NCBI GenBank assembly: GCA_947568835.1
Contig: OX387608.1
Span: forward strand, 7,912,001-7,976,000
Length of the DNA: 64,000 bases
Source: Protonemura montana
Lineage: Eukaryota > Arthropoda > Insecta > Plecoptera > Nemouridae
Reading direction: 5' to 3'
Positions 9,001-42,172 of this stretch are shown in pieces; the first letter of the stretch is position 1; every line of letters begins with the position of its first letter. Position numbers and translations under genes: made by a program. The notes below the pieces were generated by a model. It saw only the letters and a program-made list of their open reading frames with translations, was not told where the DNA came from and did not search any database.

Positions 9001-12000
9001 GTGTATGCCATACTTGGTGCAGTTTCCGGCATGGGGTCGTCCATCAACAACGCCGCCATAGCGTTCGACCGATACCGGACAATCGCCTTCCCGCTGGATG
9101 GCAGGCTCGGCATGAAGCAGGTCACGAGATGATTCCAAAATACATCCAGTTTTAAGAGCATTGGATTGATTGCCTTAGTCAGGGTCCCAGCTCTGATTTT
9201 ATTCTGCTCTGAGGATACCAGCCGGCAAAATGTGGTAACGGTAGGTGCCACCCGATGGTGCTTGCAGCCGTCACTTAAAAAAATTAATTCATTTAAATAA
9301 TTACTAATCAAAATATCGATAAATCGTTGGTGTTAGCATTCAACTTTTCACAAATACTATTTTTGTCGGAAATTGACATTTTTTTCTTCACGAAGACAGT
9401 TTCTTTAGCGCCGGGGCTCTTGACTAAACAATAAAGCCCAATGCGAGGAGTATAGTTAAATTAGTGAAACATCTGGATTAAATTCTCCTTTAGTGAATGT
9501 ATATATTTCTAAAACGCCATGGCTTTTATTTGTTTATCGTTACTCCACAGGTCATCGCCCTCGTCACTCTTACCTGGCTTTGGGCCACCCCGTTCTCTGT
9601 CCTACCACTTTTCCGAATCTGGAACCAGTACATTCCCGAGGGCTTCCTTACCACCTGCTCGTTCGACTACCTCACCGAAGGCGACAACACCCAGATGTTC
9701 GTCATCAGCATTTTCGCCTGGGCCTATTGCTTCCCACTGCTCCTCATCGTCGTCTTCTACTGGCAACTCTTCGGCCACGTCTCGCGTCACGAGCAAATGC
9801 TCCGCGCCCAGGCGAAGAAGATGAACGTCAAGTCGTTGCAAGCTAACACTGACGAGAACCAGGAATCTGTTGAGATCCGCATCGCCAAGCTGGCGTTTAC
9901 GATCTTCTTTTTGTTCCTTTGCTCGTGGACGCCGTATGCGATTGTGGCGCTGGTGGGAGCGTTTGGAAACAAGTATGTGAGATAGTGTTTGGGATTATCA
10001 TGCCGGATCAAAGTTCACCTGCGCTGGAAGTATTTAAAAACATGGAGATACTCTGACTTGGTGAGAGGCAGCAGACAGATCCTGGAATCGAAGCCCGGAA
10101 TAGTCCACTCTGAAGAGTTATTTATCTCTGTTTATTACTATCAAAGCGAACTTAAATCATATTTTCTTTTACATACCTTATACTATTTTTCAGCAATGTT
10201 GCAATTATCTAAAAGTTTTAATGTGTAGGATTTTGTATATGGCAATGACTTCACGATGCACGAGCAACGAAAGTAAGAGAACAGAAAAAATAATTTCAAA
10301 CACATAATTTAGAAAAAAAAGTACGATTATTTTGCAAATTTAATTCCTGCTTAAGAAGTAAGTTTTGATAAGAATGAATTAAAGATGTCTTAAGAACTCC
10401 AGGCTGTATTTGACTAAGTCAGACAATAACGCCACCAGCCCACGGTGTATTAAGACGCTCCCTTGCGGTCTTCAAGAGAGTATTACCTACATCTTGTATC
10501 TTGTGTTCTTCGGCAGGGCGTTGCTGACTCCTGTGGTTACCATGGTGCCGGCGGTGGCCGCGAAGGTCGTTTCCTGCATTGACCCCTGGCTGTACGCCAT
10601 CAACCACCCGCGATACAGGCAAGTCACGCAGTCCGCTCTTCGGCAGTCTTCCTCGTTTTACTGAAGGACACAAGAATTTGTCGAAGAGATCTTAAACAAG
10701 TTATTTTAGTGTTTATTAATTGAACTTTATGACCGTATCTCTGATCGTGTTTATTGGATCAAAACAAACCTCTACAATGATATAATAATGACTCAAAATA
10801 TCGATACATGTATATCAATCGTTGAGGTTAGCATTAATTAGATTAATTAAACGTAAACTAGTCGCAAATGTGAGTAACCAGCAAGAAATAACAATATGAA
10901 ATTGCGGTGACCCCACCTAGTACCATCCTCCATATTTGTCTCGGTAAATCAGTTATTTGGCAGCCATTTTTCGTGAAAACTGTTGAAAGTAAGCGTTATG
11001 GTAGTACGGCAGAACTGAAAATTAGTCAAAAGTAAAGCGTCGGTGGTTAACTATTCAAAATGATAAGAAAATTATCCATTTCTTAATGAGTTGTTTTCGC
11101 TCAAAATAGCAACCGAGTTTAAGAATGATAAGAGGTCTAGTAAAGGGCGTAAATACTAAACTAAAAGTATTTTTCAACCGTCTCACGTTTCGGGCGTCTA
11201 TGCTATAGCTGTACTAAAGTCTGCCTGCGCCCAGCTCTTTCTACCTCTAGTAAAACTCTTTCTACCTTTTAATTGGACCCCGTTTGCAAAAGTTTTAGCG
11301 TATCGAGTTCACCGTTTCCGTCGGGCATTGTTAATTTCCTAACATTTTAAGCTGCGCCCGCTCTCTGCCCGTTGAAACAAATTAATACCGGTTTAGCGAG
11401 CCACCCACGCACAATTGTTACCTTGCCAGGCACATAGTTTCTACGCACATGTTATAATTACTTGCGGCGTTATTCCATTAGTGAAATTGTAACGCACTGT
11501 TTATTAAAACCCCTCCTGCGGCAACCAGAAAGGTGTCATGCGTTTGGTACTTTGTCAGTAACGCTGTAATTTAAAAACAAATTGAGGTGGGTATATCCTC
11601 ACTACCGGATGAAACATTCGTAGGGTTTGACACAATTCTAGGCAGTGTCCTGCCGTCGACTACGTGCTAACACCAGTTTCACCCACGGGTAGACCAAGTG
11701 ATGCCAAAACCGTGGGAACTTCATGAAAAGCACAAATTAAGTCAGGACAAATCATGGATTGGCCAATCCTTTGCCATCGCTGAGTTGACTCTTAAATCTC
11801 ATCTTGGCTAAGCAAGGTTTATCAGCAATTTGTTATTTACGGTTTACCGAAATCGAACTGGACAGCATACAGGTTGATTGAGAAAGATATAATTGTCAGT
11901 GATGGCACTTGCTAGGTGCTGTCAGAAAAGATCAAGCCCCTGCATTTCATCAGCCCAGTTAGTCGTCGAACAGCATGTAATCGCTAGCGGTATCCGTTTT

Positions 12001-14089: not shown

Positions 14090-14410
14090 TACCATATAGT
14101 CCTTCATCATTCTGGTTATTAAAAATACTAATAATAAATATTAATACTAGTATAATATATTTTTATTAGTACTAATAATGAATAAAGAAATTAATTGGTT
14201 GAATTGTTTGCATTGTTTAAATTTAGTTTTTAACTAATTAATTATTACCTATAATTATTCAAATACAAGTATTAATTAACAAAGTTAGTAGTTATTATTA
14301 TAAGTTAGCAGTATTAATATAGTTTGTTATAATAATTAAGTAATTATAATTAATAATTACTCTTAATAATCAGTAATGTAATACTCTGGTAATTAAAATT
14401 GTTGGGTTTG
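14090..14410. repeat. AT-rich low-complexity block
   Basis: About 320 bp composed almost wholly of TAATTA/ATTAAT-like words, including tattaatactagtataata. No coding signal. Confidence 0.7.
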
Positions 14411-37018: not shown

Positions 37019-37166
37019 TTTAACAAGATGGTATATAGTGTTTGTTTGTTTGTTTATTGTTTATTTTCCATTGTAAAAAATGATTACATGCCATGATCGT
37101 TGTCACATAAAACAGTAAAAACAGGCTTTGGAAATTGTCAATTGCTAATTAAAATTTGTACATTGA

Positions 37167-40100
37167 TCATTTTTGTTCTTTCACACAATATTTACAATCG
37201 CAACCATTCAGACTAGTATATTCTAAGATAGTGTAAAACGAATGTTGAATTAAAAAATCTTTGACCATTCCTTTAAAGCTTTCCATGCTAATTGTTTTTT
37301 CCTTTATCTTGCGGGGTAATTTATTGTATAAAATTGGTCCCATAAATGTTACATTCTTTCTCCCTATTTCTAACAAGCTTTTTTTTTGTCGTATATCGTC
37401 TTTTTTTCTAGTATTTTTATTGTGAATATTTTTGTTTTCTTGAAACATGGTCGGGTTGTCTCTAACATATAAAATTGTCTCTAGTATATAAAGGGAAGGT
37501 AATGTCAGTATGTTAAGGTCTTTGAACGCTTTTCTGCATGTGCCTCTTTTCATGATTTTTCCAAGTATTCTTATTGCCCTTTTTTGTTTAATGAATATTT
37601 TGTTGGACTCGGCTGATATTCCCCATACCATTATCCCATAATTTAATTTCGACTGTATATATGCGTGATACATTAATTTTAGTGTATTTTTGCTAACTTG
37701 ATGAGATAGTCTTTGTAACATGAAGGATGCTGTGGCTAACTTTTTGCTTAGGATGTTGATGTGTGCCTTCCATTTTAAATTACCATCTATTTGTATTCCA
37801 AGGAAAGGGCTTTGGTACACTACTTTTGCATTTAATTTCTTGCTTGACGACACTGTCATTTTTCCTTTGTTTTTGAACACTATGATGTTTGTTTTTTGAC
37901 AGTTTAGTTTCAGCTTGTTTGGTACGAACCATTCGTTCAAGTCTATAAGTGTGCTGTTTACGTTTTTTATTAATGTGTTATCATCGTCAGCGGTCAATAA
38001 AATGCTTGTGTCGTCTGCGAATAGAATTGCTTTCCGGTTGTCATCTCTGATATAATTGGGGAGGTCATTTACGTATAAACTAAAGAGAATTGCCGCTAGT
38101 GGGGCGCCTTGCGGGACTCCGGTTTTAATATCCTCTAAATCCGATAGCACACAGCCATTATTAGAGTTTATCGACACTCGTTGCTTTCGCCCCGTCAGGT
38201 ATGACTCGATCCATTCCCCTGTCGTGCCTACTATGCCGTATCCTTTTAATTTTTCTAGAAGTATCTTGTGATTTATTGAATCAAAGGCTTTCGATAGATC
38301 GCACATGATTGTTGCGATTGCTTTTTTATTTTCTAGTGCATCAGTGATTTGCCTTATCATACTGACAATTGCTGTATTTGTTGAGCGTCCCTTCCTGAAT
38401 CCGTGTTGTACTTCGTCTATAATTCTATTATTTTCTACATACTCATTTAGTCTGACAAGAAAAGCTTTCTCAAAAATTTTTGCAAAATTTGTTATGAGTG
38501 CTATTGGCCGGTAGTTCTGCATCTCTGAGGTAGCCCCTTTTTTCAGAATCGGTTTGATTATAGTAAGCTTCGCTAACGATGGGAATTCACCTGATCTAAA
38601 CGAGAAGTTGCAAATTTCTGACAGTGGGTAGGCTATTTCGTTACATACTCTCTTTATTACTTGGATCGGGACTTCATCCCACCCGGTTGATTTCTTATTT
38701 TTCAATTTTGTTATTATTTCTATAATTTCGGCCCTGTTCGTGTTCCTTAAAGTCATCGTTGTTTCGATTCTTGACATTCCCGTCTTCATTTTGGTGAGGC
38801 ATTCATCCAGGGTATCTTCCATGTCATCTGTTGTTTTTTTTGCTATTGTCGCAAAAAAATTATTGAAGTGGTTTGCCACCTCTTTTGCGTCTTTGATTTC
38901 TTTTTCCTTGATTTCTAGGACGATGTTCTTTGTTCGATTTTTCTTGAATTTTCCAGTGTGTGCGTGTATTATTGTCCAAGCCGCCTTCATCTTCTTGTTT
39001 GCTTTATTGATAAAGCTGTCATTGCTTTTCTTTTTTGCTCGACGTGTTTGCTTGGTGACCATTTTCTGTGCTGCTTTAAGATCTTTTTTAAATCTTGCGC
39101 CGCCCTTTCTCCTAGTGAGTATCAATAATCTCCGTTTTAATTCGCATGTCAATTTTATTTCGGCTGTTATCCAGTCATTATTCTTCTTTCGTTGTCTGAC
39201 TTGACATCGTTTCTTCGGAAAGTGTTTGTTAAAGGTGTCTAGAAAGATTTCCAGGAAATTTCGGAACTTTTCATCTGTGGTGGTTCTCGCTAAGACACCT
39301 TCCCAATGTTTCCCTCCAATATCTTTTGCAAAGTTTTCCAGGTTTACATCGCTTATATTTCTAGTGTAGGTTAACTCTCGTTTTTTAATTATCGGTGAGA
39401 TTGTGATGTTTACCAGTAGTCCCACGTGGTCAGATAGCCCAGCTTCAATGGGGTGTGGCTCTTCGTCTAGTGTGAAGTTGGTAATAATGTTATCTATCGT
39501 TGTTCTTGTCCCTTCCGTAATTCTGGTGGGAAAATTGACATTGGCCCACATATTAATGTCTGCGAGGAGGTCTTCAAACTTCTCTCTGGAGTAGCTGTTT
39601 GTGTTTCCTAGCAGGTCAATGTTTATGTCACCTATGAGCACTATTCTTTTATCTTCTTTTTTGAGTTGCTTTATTAGTCGTTTTATTTTAATAATGAAGG
39701 CGTTGATATTTTTACTATCGGGTGTCCGGTACACCACAATAATAATTATCGGGTTGCTTTCTTTCAATTCGATGCTACATACTTCGAATACCCTTTCTTT
39801 TGCTAATTGGTCTATGTCAGGTCGGTTTATCCACTTTAATGTGGTGTCGCGGATGTATATAGCAGTCCCGCCACCTTTTGCCTTGTTTCGCGCATAGCAT
39901 GCGGCGAGTTCATAATCTCCAATTATTACTGCGTTCTCGCGTCCTCGTGCCAGCCAGTGTTCAGAGAGACATAAAATATCAATTTCCTTTTCTGGTGTTT
40001 GTGAGTCAATGAAAACTTCTAGCTCCTCTACCTTGTTTTGGACACTACATATGTTTAGGTGCATTATAGTAATGTTTGTTGACTTACGTGTATCAGTCTT

Positions 40101-40352
40101 CTTTTCTTTATTCTTATTCTTATATCGATCAGTCTTCTTCTTATCAGTCTTACTTGAATCAGTCTTCTTTTTGTTTTTGTCAGTCTCTTCAGTTTCTTCA
40201 GTCTCTTCAGTTTCTTCAGTCTTTTTTGTCTCTTCAGTCTCTTCTTTGTCTTTCTCCTGCTTTTCAGTAGTTTTTTCATATGTATATGGTAACGTTGTTT
40301 CACTAACGTGTGTGACTGTGCTAATCTTGCGTGGCCTATTAATAAGTAATTG
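37167..40352 (-). CDS. LINE ORF2: linker, APE endonuclease and reverse transcriptase
   Basis: The replication enzyme: nicks target DNA and copies element RNA from the nick. The frame is open from directly after the ORF1 stop. Its first ATG is 40064, from which 965 aa follow. Numbered from that Met: EN residues N4 (HLNIC), E35 (LSEHW), VYRTPDS near 110, IGDIN 144-148, TIDNIITN near 195, SDH near 211. RT motifs: RPIALITNFAKIFEKAF, QHGFRKGRSTNTA, CDLSKAFDSINH, GVPQGAPLAAILFS, and the catalytic FADD near 682. A CR1/jockey-like C-terminal domain (YIQSKLNYGIMVWG, then LTLPSLYILETILY) follows, with a final CDCKYC. The Met at 40064 is in the first EN strand, preceded by in-frame STNITI, so it is unlikely to be the natural start. 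Expression by readthrough of the ORF1 UAG is inferred. Confidence 0.93.
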   Translation of the reverse strand, partial: QLLINRPRKISTVTHVSETTLPYTYEKTTEKQEKDKEETEETKKTEETEETEETEETDKNKKKTDSSKTDKKKTDRYKNKNKEKKTDTRKSTNITIMHLNICSVQNKVEELEVFIDSQTPEKEIDILCLSEHWLARGRENAVIIGDYELAACYARNKAKGGGTAIYIRDTTLKWINRPDIDQLAKERVFEVCSIELKESNPIIIIVVYRTPDSKNINAFIIKIKRLIKQLKKEDKRIVLIGDINIDLLGNTNSYSREKFEDLLADINMWANVNFPTRITEGTRTTIDNIITNFTLDEEPHPIEAGLSDHVGLLVNITISPIIKKRELTYTRNISDVNLENFAKDIGGKHWEGVLARTTTDEKFRNFLEIFLDTFNKHFPKKRCQVRQRKKNNDWITAEIKLTCELKRRLLILTRRKGGARFKKDLKAAQKMVTKQTRRAKKKSNDSFINKANKKMKAAWTIIHAHTGKFKKNRTKNIVLEIKEKEIKDAKEVANHFNNFFATIAKKTTDDMEDTLDECLTKMKTGMSRIETTMTLRNTNRAEIIEIITKLKNKKSTGWDEVPIQVIKRVCNEIAYPLSEICNFSFRSGEFPSLAKLTIIKPILKKGATSEMQNYRPIALITNFAKIFEKAFLVRLNEYVENNRIIDEVQHGFRKGRSTNTAIVSMIRQITDALENKKAIATIMCDLSKAFDSINHKILLEKLKGYGIVGTTGEWIESYLTGRKQRVSINSNNGCVLSDLEDIKTGVPQGAPLAAILFSLYVNDLPNYIRDDNRKAILFADDTSILLTADDDNTLIKNVNSTLIDLNEWFVPNKLKLNCQKTNIIVFKNKGKMTVSSSKKLNAKVVYQSPFLGIQIDGNLKWKAHINILSKKLATASFMLQRLSHQVSKNTLKLMYHAYIQSKLNYGIMVWGISAESNKIFIKQKRAIRILGKIMKRGTCRKAFKDLNILTLPSLYILETILYVRDNPTMFQENKNIHNKNTRKKDDIRQKKSLLEIGRKNVTFMGPILYNKLPRKIKEKTISMESFKGMVKDFLIQHSFYTILEYTSLNGCDCKYCVKEQK
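40065..40352 (-). repeat. ORF1-ORF2 linker with charged repeat
   Basis: Ninety-six codons after the UAG, with no stop and no ATG. Starts QLLINRPRKISTVTHVSETT, then a Lys/Glu/Thr stretch with repeated TEE units (about five) followed by KKTD units (about four). It looks like a flexible charged tether. Codon-level repetition (actgaagag, aagactgat) suggests it grew by slippage while keeping the frame. Confidence 0.85.
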
Positions 40353-40361
40353 CTATATTTC
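40353..40361 (-). promoter_or_regulatory. Candidate leaky stop codon (its +4 to +9 context is 40352-40347)
   Basis: Minus strand: GAA ATA TAG CAA TTA CTT. UAG followed by CAA UUA fits the CAR-YYA rule of tobacco mosaic virus-type readthrough stops. The downstream frame is the ORF2 frame. Confidence 0.7.
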
Positions 40362-41594
40362 CGACTCGCTGTTGTCTTCGTTTTCGTTTTCTTCTTCCAG
40401 TGCTTCATCCACTTTCTCTAATATAAGTTGGCTAAGGTAGAACCCACCTCTGCGGTTTAGATGCAGTCCATCTTTTGCTCTTTCGTGTGCTGTGACTCTC
40501 GTGTTCGGATTATAGAATATTGCACCTCTTTCTTCACATAGCCACTGTAGGCCGTCGTTGAGCTTGTCAATGGTCGAGTCGAATACATTGCGCCTATACA
40601 CCAGTCCCCCAATGACCCACTTTGCGTTTTTCCACTTCCTGGACACTGTTTCGACGAGATCGTCGAACTCGGTCACCAGATGAACCTTGGATCTGGATTT
40701 TATGTTATTGGTACCTGCATGTACGACGATAACCTTTGGTTCACTTTCACTTTCTTGTTTCAAGCATAGTTGCTTCTTTAGATCTTTCACCCGAATGCCA
40801 GGAAACACAGCTACTTCGCACCCTTCTCTAGTGCATATTTCGCCTGCGCCCCTTATAATGGAGTCACCCACTAGCATCGCTGTGCTTGACGCGTATTTTG
40901 GAGCTTGATGTGTTTCCACTACTGCTTCTGCCTGGGAAGTTTTTTGTTGAATTAACCTTCTGTACTTGTTGTCTCTTATAATTTTGATCTCATCAGGCGT
41001 GAATTTGTTGTCTGTGCCTTGCAATTGCCTCGGTTCATCGCTTTCGTGGTCTTTTATGGACATTTGCTTGTCATTTACTTGATTGTTTGTTTTTGAGTTT
41101 CTTTTCGGCGGGGGGGTTTCAAATCGCTCCACCATTTTGTGCACTCGCGATTGTTCTGCCTCCTGTAGTCGTTTGACAGGACTACATTTTTCTTCTATAG
41201 CTGGTGATTTATCAGCGAGTGGCTTATCACTGAAAATGTCTACGTTTTTTGAAAGCTCATCTACTTTAAATCTAAGTAGCTCGTTTATTTCTTCTAGGTT
41301 TTGTATTCTTTTCTCTTTTTCGTTAATCAGTCTGTCATTGTATCTTTGATTGTTTTGGTTTCGTCCTACCTCATCAGCTGTTTCTATGTTTCCGTTTGCT
41401 CTGACATGCTCTTCCAGTAGATCGAATCTTGCTGCCTTCATTCGTTCTACTAATTCTTCCTTTCTTCCACCTTTGGAGAGGCCAAGTTTCTCCAGCTCCT
41501 TCTGAAGTTCGCACTTGTTTAATTTCACTAAAATCTCGGTAAAACCGCAAATATCACGGAGCACACACAAAGCTGCACCACTCTCGTCGGCCAT
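40353..41594 (-). CDS. LINE ORF1: SAP domain, coiled coil and SGNH esterase, 413 aa
   Basis: Structural (gag-like) protein expected to bind the element RNA. Order: SAP-type helix-extension-helix at about 23-57 (LNKCELQKELEKLGLSKGGR), a Glu/Lys-rich coiled coil at about 83-120 (LINEKEKRIQNLEEINELLR), a polar spacer with PPPKRN, then an SGNH/GDSL hydrolase fold at about 238-400. Catalytic blocks are intact: VGDS with S245, a Gly block (FPGIRV), GTNN at 294-297, and DGLHL with D375 and H378. ORF1 esterases are known from CR1/L2 LINEs; I see no PHD finger or zinc knuckle, so the SAP domain would be the nucleic-acid binder. The start is the first ATG after the target duplication. Ends UAG CAA UUA. 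Confidence 0.93.
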   Translation of the reverse strand: MADESGAALCVLRDICGFTEILVKLNKCELQKELEKLGLSKGGRKEELVERMKAARFDLLEEHVRANGNIETADEVGRNQNNQRYNDRLINEKEKRIQNLEEINELLRFKVDELSKNVDIFSDKPLADKSPAIEEKCSPVKRLQEAEQSRVHKMVERFETPPPKRNSKTNNQVNDKQMSIKDHESDEPRQLQGTDNKFTPDEIKIIRDNKYRRLIQQKTSQAEAVVETHQAPKYASSTAMLVGDSIIRGAGEICTREGCEVAVFPGIRVKDLKKQLCLKQESESEPKVIVVHAGTNNIKSRSKVHLVTEFDDLVETVSRKWKNAKWVIGGLVYRRNVFDSTIDKLNDGLQWLCEERGAIFYNPNTRVTAHERAKDGLHLNRRGGFYLSQLILEKVDEALEEENENEDNSESEI

Positions 41595-41604
41595 CTTGTC
41601 ACTC

Positions 41605-41667: not shown

Positions 41668-42172
41668 CCGAATGGATTGGCGTGTTGGAAACACCGATCC
41701 TCATGAGATCATCGAAGTTAAGCGACACTGCGCTGAGTCAGGTATTGGATGGGTGACCGTCATACACATGCCCAGTTCTGTTTAGCAGAGAGGTTGGAGG
41801 TATACAAATGAGTACAGCAACTAAATTAACTTTGTTATGATGTGTTTTTCGGATATGCTATGCATTGAAGAGGTTTGCGGCCCTCGAAAGGGTCTCATGT
41901 CTCGACGTTTCGACGAGGCACGGCTCGTCATCTTCAGGAGAATAATTAACTTTCCTCATCAACCTCTTGACAGCATTGGTTTGTGGAGGAATCCTGTTGT
42001 TCGCGTTGTACCGTCCTTCGGAAGTGACGTTAAGCCAGTGGTCCCCTTGGTCTTCGACAGGAGTAGGCTACGTGCCGGCACCGGGGTTTCCCTCCTTGTT
42101 AGGCCAGGTCAGCTTCATCATCATCCTCATCATCATCCACTCATTCACCGACGCTATAAGACCAGATCATCA
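41668..42172 (+). mobile_element. 5S-SINE copy 9, with a Penelope-like insert
   Basis: Head (gcgtgttggaaacaccgatc, then aagttaagcgacactgcgct) and body present, but about 41835-41947 is foreign: it contains ctcgacgtttcgacgaggca and ctcgtcatcttcaggag, a Penelope-type fold-back motif. Confidence 0.9.

Follow-up and report, generated by a model that had tools for sequence, protein, structure and literature searches.

How low levels of ORF2p are made from a bicistronic LINE RNA is an old open question, to which the answers proposed for LINE-1 and SART1 invoke unusual initiation. In tobacco mosaic virus (TMV), the polymerase is carried on a long in-frame readthrough extension. A number of plant viruses, TMV included, owe their readthrough to the hexamer CARYYA; the type I context of TMV is UAG-CAR-YYA, and the context of murine leukaemia virus (MuLV) is of type III and has a 3′ pseudoknot (PMC3542737). 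In an OPRL1 reporter, CARYYA gave ~15% readthrough, all six of its bases seemed important, and UAG and UGA were far above UAA (PMC4132726). The ORF2 of LINEs has been discussed as reinitiated or unusually initiated (PMC5972666, PMC5009743); a coupling of the reinitiation type has been described in SART1 and put forward for LINE-1, both of them two-ORF LINEs whose unusual translation yields a separate ORF2p and not a fusion (PMC5972666). For the ciliate Paramecium, read-through of the ORF1 stop was suggested for Group 3 LINEs, and +1 frameshifting or reinitiation for Groups 1 and 2, in a report whose available part presents neither a TMV-type context nor a conservation test (PMC5405496). In the Copia-type LTR elements VdLTRE5 and Tca2, GAG and POL lie in frame across a stop, and both elements are reported to lack CARYYA (PMC3441728). 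Two papers on esterase ORF1s (PMC4120745, PMC3905857) mention neither a stop codon nor readthrough nor a frameshift. In the open-licence literature, to the extent that the papers were available and with other reports possibly missed, we came across no description of a TMV-type signal in LINEs, or of such a signal being conserved, nor of LINE readthrough beyond the Paramecium suggestion, including in PMC12810828 and PMC6875170.

The window, the whole 64-kb stretch of Protonemura montana DNA analysed here, carries on its minus strand a LINE copy (Table 1) whose 5′ end reads GAGTGACAAGATGG and whose 3′ tail is (AAACA)n. The 5′ start GAGTGAC is found in five of the six copies that reach the 5′ end, L015 being the exception (places in the genome are numbered with the prefix L). 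The ORF1 frame spans 425 codons from stop to stop (41630-40353, minus strand), and the ORF1 product alone has a computed mass of 47.3 kDa. The closest solved relative of its esterase is PDB 4c1b, titled 'ORF1-encoded protein', which is presumably the zebrafish ZfL2-1 ORF1 esterase. At E 0.001 in Pfam, the ORF2 domains are PF03372 and PF00078 only, with no RNase H. The class is marked by a GDSL/SGNH esterase ORF1 homologous to ZfL2-1, which is present here (PF13472, 4c1b), and by its ORF1, endonuclease (EN) and reverse transcriptase (RT) the element probably belongs with the LINEs with esterase ORF1 (Jockey superfamily, CR1/L2 lineages). Like ZfL2-1 and the CR1/L2 LINEs, it combines an esterase homologous to 4c1b with an APE-type EN and RT; unlike them, it has an N-terminal SAP domain and ORFs joined by putative recoding signals. 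An opsin-like frame and a weak odorant-receptor-like frame, the latter below the Pfam cut-off, also lie in the window and point to an insect.

The original prediction, drawn from the window, had read the minus-strand end of ORF1 as TCG GAA ATA TAG CAA TTA CTT, with a frame that continues beyond the UAG through a 96-codon linker into 965 further codons, no ATG in that frame before the EN, and a TMV-type context at the stop. These readings were confirmed throughout. The TAG lies at 40355-40353 with CAATTA directly 3′ of it, the frame past it amounts to 1061 codons in the register of ORF1, and its first ATG is codon 97 (40064), close to an EN asparagine that we take to be the catalytic residue of APE-type endonucleases. 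An ORF1-ORF2 fusion would have a predicted mass of 169.8 kDa.

Table 1. Features of the LINE copy in the window (positions in the window)
Feature	Positions	Strand	Basis or remark
LINE copy	37039..41604	-	Element limits common to other genomic copies
5′ UTR, ~10 nt	41595..41604	-	Comparison with genomic copies
ORF1, 413 codons + stop	40353..41594	-	First ATG at 41594
SAP domain, ORF1	41442..41528	-	Pfam PF02037, E 7.8e-7
GDSL/SGNH esterase domain, ORF1	40446..40805	-	Pfam PF13472, E 3.9e-8; PDB 4c1b, E 6.1e-12
ORF1 stop TAG, presumed leaky	40353..40355	-	TAG-CAR-YYA in 29/54 readable related places
CAATTA, matches the TMV-type CAR-YYA hexamer	40347..40352	-	Sequence reading
Linker, K/E/T-rich, in frame, 96 codons, without in-frame ATG	40065..40352	-	Frame reading
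First in-frame ATG, codon 97 of the ORF2 frame	40062..40064	-	Three codons 5′ of the presumed EN catalytic Asn
ORF2 frame, 1061 codons, terminus TGA TCAATG (not CARYYA)	37167..40352	-	Same register as ORF1
Endonuclease domain, apurinic-type	39426..39995	-	Pfam PF03372, E 2.6e-6
Reverse transcriptase domain	37821..38549	-	Pfam PF00078, E 1.8e-31; R2 RT structures, E 2.5e-7

The genome (258 Mb, 34 contigs) was searched with the ORF1 protein, which gave 80 listed matches, and the DNA 3′ of ORF1 was read for part of them; further places came from matches to the ORF2 protein, where the DNA 5′ of ORF2 was read. The matches were fetched in part and the search scores the best candidates only, so that all family counts are counts among the matches listed. 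In total, 67 distinct places (L009-L016, L023-L063, L071-L088) were read at the junction and 54 are readable; the 13 set aside are fragments, truncated or without visible ORF1 (L062, L073-L078, L082, L084-L088). The window family was found with its junction at eight genomic places, and all eight read ATATAGCAATTACTT. The original prediction had asked for this alignment and had named a sense codon, another stop context or a linker frameshift as signs against it; each is absent from every copy of the window family. The copies are 99.7-100% identical in long matches, which by itself shows no more than recent activity, and ORF2-only truncated copies of the same LINE also occur in the genome.

The 54 readable ORF1 ends comprise 29 with TAG-CAR-YYA, 23 of a -1 class described below, and L047 and L083. 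The 29 represent 12 families of related LINEs in one genome, the motif thus being kept in 11 families besides that of the window, and the hexamers across families are CAATTA, CAACTA, CAATCA, CAACCA and CAGCTA. From the TAG the frame is open into the endonuclease at 26 of the 29 places; the three others have an insert past the junction (L037), a linker stop (L043), or an unrecognisable ORF2 with in-frame stops downstream of the junction (L036). L047, a decayed relative of family D, reads TAA-CAATTA and counts against the pattern, since UAA is the weaker stop for readthrough. L023 and L042 have a frameshifted ORF1, and the ORF1 of L013 and L016 is 5′-truncated. The junction exceptions L047, L043, L036, L037, L023 and L042 are damaged copies, and a sense codon at the stop position is found at none of the 54 readable places. 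The twelfth family, L081, has TAG CAACTA in frame and an ORF2 64% identical to that of the window, and its upstream ORF gave no BLAST match to the window ORF1 over the 480 nt read. The ORF2 frame is fully open in five families (1031-1096 codons) and uninterrupted also in family H (998 codons) and L081 (986), which makes seven families with an intact ORF2; it is broken in the copies read of F (L030), H (L038) and K (L040).

When representatives of 11 families are aligned, CARYYA stands 3′ of the TAG in 11/11, whereas none of 440 other offsets within those 60-nt windows matches; the flank composition gives a chance match of p ~0.0021 per site. As the families were grouped by the junction itself, the stronger test is the contrast with saturated neutral sites. 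Every TAG-CAR-YYA column is fixed or varies within its class, and most columns beside the motif are of low information content. The 9-nt signal has a mean pairwise identity of 0.86, compared with 0.30 before and 0.29 after it, and ORF1 fourfold sites are 0.277 identical in seven families, with 0.262 expected at saturation. The YYA triplet occurs as TTA, CTA, TCA and CCA, so that the second codon past the stop encodes L, S or P; the residue changes while the motif holds, which implies a constraint on the nucleotides. TAG-CAR-YYA is evidently kept by selection, since the neutral sites are saturated. The linkers of nine families contain no in-frame stop in 646 codons, and 21 and 89 stops in the other two frames; this count was made without L036 and L043, whose EN motif is unrecognised and which both have in-frame stops past the junction, and with L038 for family H instead of L037 with its insert. 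As a control, the stops that terminate ORF2 match CARYYA in none of five families, which use all three stop codons. No significant RNA structure was detected 3′ of the TAG in the 11 families folded (z -1.15 to 1.54), and we know of no requirement for such structure in type I readthrough. L081 is outside the signal alignment, the linker count, the RNA folding and the identity statistics.

The window LINE and at least 11 sister families thus very probably rely on programmed translational readthrough of the amber codon of ORF1 for the production of ORF2, the TAG-CAR-YYA evidence coming from one genome. The fusion by readthrough put forward in the original prediction appears well supported by signal, frame and conservation, and the case is larger than was stated there. 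Most ribosomes would terminate at the TAG and release ORF1p (SAP/GDSL, 47 kDa). In a minority, a near-cognate tRNA would decode the UAG and translation would proceed along a linker that is flexible and charged to EN-RT, and the resulting ~170 kDa fusion would be the working ORF2 protein. A fixed ratio and a covalent link would bring a single enzyme together with many copies of ORF1p on one RNA, in the style of Gag-Pol; in gammaretroviruses, which use UAG readthrough, the structural protein is likewise made mostly alone, with a low-rate fusion to RT. Stop and adjacent hexamer are those of TMV type I (PMC3542737), but the host is a cellular LINE and the extension would be EN-RT rather than an RNA-dependent RNA polymerase. 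The window LINE differs from MuLV with its type III context and pseudoknot in having CARYYA and no detected structure. The frames are arranged across a stop as in VdLTRE5 and Tca2, which are LTR elements. For the esterase-ORF1 group, a conserved recoding signal would be a directly testable answer to how ORF2p is supplied, as mutation of one hexamer should abolish the fusion. If the proposal is true, ORF1p and ORF2p are parts of a single chain, a link relevant to cis-preference and particle assembly.

The readings that compete with readthrough make different predictions for this junction. Reinitiation at 40064, the alternative named in the original prediction, would have ribosomes stop at the TAG, scan ~290 nt and restart at the ATG to give a separate ORF2p, by a coupling of the kind described for SART1. 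An ATG three codons 5′ of the EN asparagine is indeed present in the window and in families A, B, G, I, K and L081, and an earlier linker ATG exists in D, F, I and K, so that reinitiation could operate in all these families. Families E (74 codons to the asparagine) and H (30 codons) lack an ATG in all linker frames, their first in-frame ATG lying beyond the presumed catalytic asparagine, and reinitiation is therefore disfavoured; the position of the methionine is taken by F or L in E, H and D and looks like a strand residue. Reinitiation also predicts neither the conservation of CAR-YYA nor an open in-frame linker, both of which are conserved, and we consider it unlikely. The other alternative of the original prediction, that a CAG codon of one fused ORF recently mutated to TAG, has a negligible probability, as does an inactive copy, because the TAG is present in 8/8 copies of the window family and in 12 families and no readable place has a sense codon; the recent nonsense mutation is ruled out by the same counts.

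Other routes past the TAG would be A-to-I editing of UAG to UGG, for which the amber/W site of hepatitis delta virus is a known parallel, an amber suppressor tRNA, or reassignment of the code. None of the three predicts the CAR-YYA hexamer, the ORF2 of family E terminates at TAG, which argues against code reassignment, and a tRNA gene search of the 64-kb window found none; such a bypass is very improbable. That the junction is conserved by descent only, as a passenger on ORF1 modules that elements exchange, finds some encouragement in ORF1 being more conserved than EN (GDSL 47-74% versus EN 27-49% in 28 pairs from eight readthrough families) and in the disagreement of the ORF1 and EN trees. 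This disagreement suggests that ORF1 and the junction may move as a module and that the families are not fully independent. Passenger bases would, however, have been erased, given near-random bases on both flanks of the 9-nt signal and saturated fourfold sites in ORF1, and descent alone is scarcely credible as the explanation.

The -1 class consists of 23 places in ten families, eight of which have ORF2 in the -1 frame. This was established by tblastn in six (L024/25/48, L051, L058/72, L061/63, L057 and L059/60/71/80) and by a long open frame with EN-like sequence by eye in two (L052/53 and L044/45/46/49/79). A canonical heptamer (X_XXY_YYZ in the zero frame of the overlap) is present in seven of the eight families, at a chance of ~0.003 for one given site. 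In six of them (L024, L051, L058, L061, L057, L052) A_AAA_AAC or G_GGA_AAC stands directly 5′ of the stop, as in the junctions of L024, AAAAAACTGA, and L052, GGGAAACTAA. The L059 family has T_TTT_TTA (UUUUUUA) in the zero frame, 108 nt 5′ of the stop and inside a 127-nt overlap, and the L044 family has the non-canonical GGAAAAC. Elsewhere in eight ORF1s, within 600 nt before the stop, heptamers occur at 7/1090 sites, the L059 site included. In 13 of 21 places (L045 and L046 left out) no stop interrupts the -1 frame before the stretch read ends; this frame runs for 497/503 codons in L025, 423/425 in L053, 390/401 in L061 and 324/411 in L052; it is broken early in L051, L054, L055 and L041. The two decayed families, L054 (GGGAAAC) and L041/L055 (GGAAAAC, GGCAAAC), have only a putative -1 ORF2. 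No significant nested RNA structure was found downstream of the -1 junctions at ten places (z -2.17 to 1.96, nested folds only). L083 has an ORF1 that is RRM-like by eye and a -1 overlap without heptamer. GGGGGCA occurs shortly 3′ of the stop in L024, L051, L055 and L041.

ORF1 and ORF2 of the eight sister families thus appear to be joined by retrovirus-like -1 frameshifting, by which the same outcome would be reached mostly at a slippery heptamer abutting the ORF1 stop. The case for readthrough does not rest on this class. In an EN tree of 15 rows there are at least four changes of mode, of which well-supported branches force two, and the clustering of the modes does not exceed that of shuffled labels (145/500 as low); an ORF1 tree of 17 rows has two changes, one forced. 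The EN tree omits L023, L036, L041, L054 and L055 and has L039 in place of L038, L057, L059 and L081 are in neither tree, and there are several long branches and some short rows. The trees suggest only that the readthrough and -1 modes are not two clean clades. It is likely that ORF1-ORF2 fusion by programmed recoding is a property of the esterase-ORF1 LINE group, with an interchangeable device, amber readthrough or -1 heptamer slippage, that has switched in evolution. The co-existence of both devices in related elements would imply that the fusion and its ratio are under selection rather than any single mechanism, and parallels the retroviruses. The idea of several devices in related LINEs is not wholly new, given the Paramecium suggestion, which concerned a ciliate and +1 rather than -1 shifts (PMC5405496). 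If interchangeable recoding is true, non-LTR elements reached the retroviral Gag-Pol solution to stoichiometry, and many LINEs may have stop-and-go junctions between ORF1 and ORF2. Gene annotation that stops at the first stop codon will overlook such junctions.

Outside this genome, scanned viral contigs yielded no confirmed relatives, and an RT-alignment scan of a prokaryote genome collection found six contigs whose RTs are LINE-like and which presumably stem from eukaryotic contamination in MAGs. Two (L091, L094) are uninformative, and in the other four (L089, L090, L092, L093) an upstream frame and ORF2 are in register across one stop. L089 and L090, whose ORF2s are 52.6% identical, read TAG GGG and TAG GAT at the junction and have zinc-knuckle-like motifs (by eye) in the upstream frame. 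L092 and L093 form one family (DNA 99.7% identical) with the junction TGA CAA ACC. The stop contexts of all four are not CARYYA. These contigs hint that in-frame ORF1-stop-ORF2 junctions may be wider in LINEs. TAG-GGG, TAG-GAT and TGA-CAA in L089, L090, L092 and L093 are possible further stop-and-go cases.

In six sister families of the window LINE, the ORF1 stop is immediately preceded by AAAAAAC or GGGAAAC, both canonical -1 slippery heptamers, and ORF2 lies in the -1 frame relative to ORF1. This set comprises eleven related LINE places in the same genome (L024, L025, L048, L051, L052, L053, L057, L058, L061, L063 and L072). A further family (L059, L060, L071 and L080), whose ORF2 is 46% identical to that of the window element, has a zero-frame TTTTTTA, a heptamer of the HIV type, inside a 127-nt overlap of ORF1 and ORF2. 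A run of five G residues is found a few nucleotides 3' of the ORF1 stop at L024, L051, L055, L041, L054 and L044, reading GGGGGCA in four of the six, and this run could form the stem of a pseudoknot.

Four LINEs on contigs of metagenome-assembled genomes (MAGs) labelled Arcobacter, Aquifex, Thermocrinis and Thermoprotei (L089, L090, L092 and L093) have ORF2 in register with the upstream frame across a single TAG or TGA, the junction contexts among them being TAG GGG, TAG GAT and TGA CAA ACC. These contigs are presumed to be eukaryotic contaminants.

The trees of the endonuclease domain of ORF2 and the GDSL esterase domain of ORF1 disagree, and between families ORF1 is better conserved than the endonuclease, which together suggest that ORF1 modules have been exchanged between elements.

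A 5' UTR of about 10 nt is common to five of the six element copies that have a 5' end. The stretch directly upstream of the window element is 84-90% similar to stretches in two related places (L009 and L012) and represents a second repeat close to insertion sites.

Features in the window
Feature	Position	Strand	Remarks
Opsin-like 7tm_1 coding frame	9497-9985		outside the LINE
Element 5' UTR	41595-41604	minus	~10 nt only, GAGTGACAAG then ATGG
Upstream repeat	41952-42165		

A family with ~41%-identical ORF2 sits within about 55 kb of the ends of contigs C2, C4, C11 and C12 and is possibly subtelomeric. No ORF1 was visible in the two places of this family that were read (L084, C2:56600; L085, C11:18818000, both in assembly G000), and a G run lies upstream in both. 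Near the end of contig C15 of the same assembly, equal-score ORF1 matches occur at 14372, 25793, 37213 and 57152, three of them spaced at 11.4 kb and the fourth 19.9 kb beyond, as if arranged in a tandem array.
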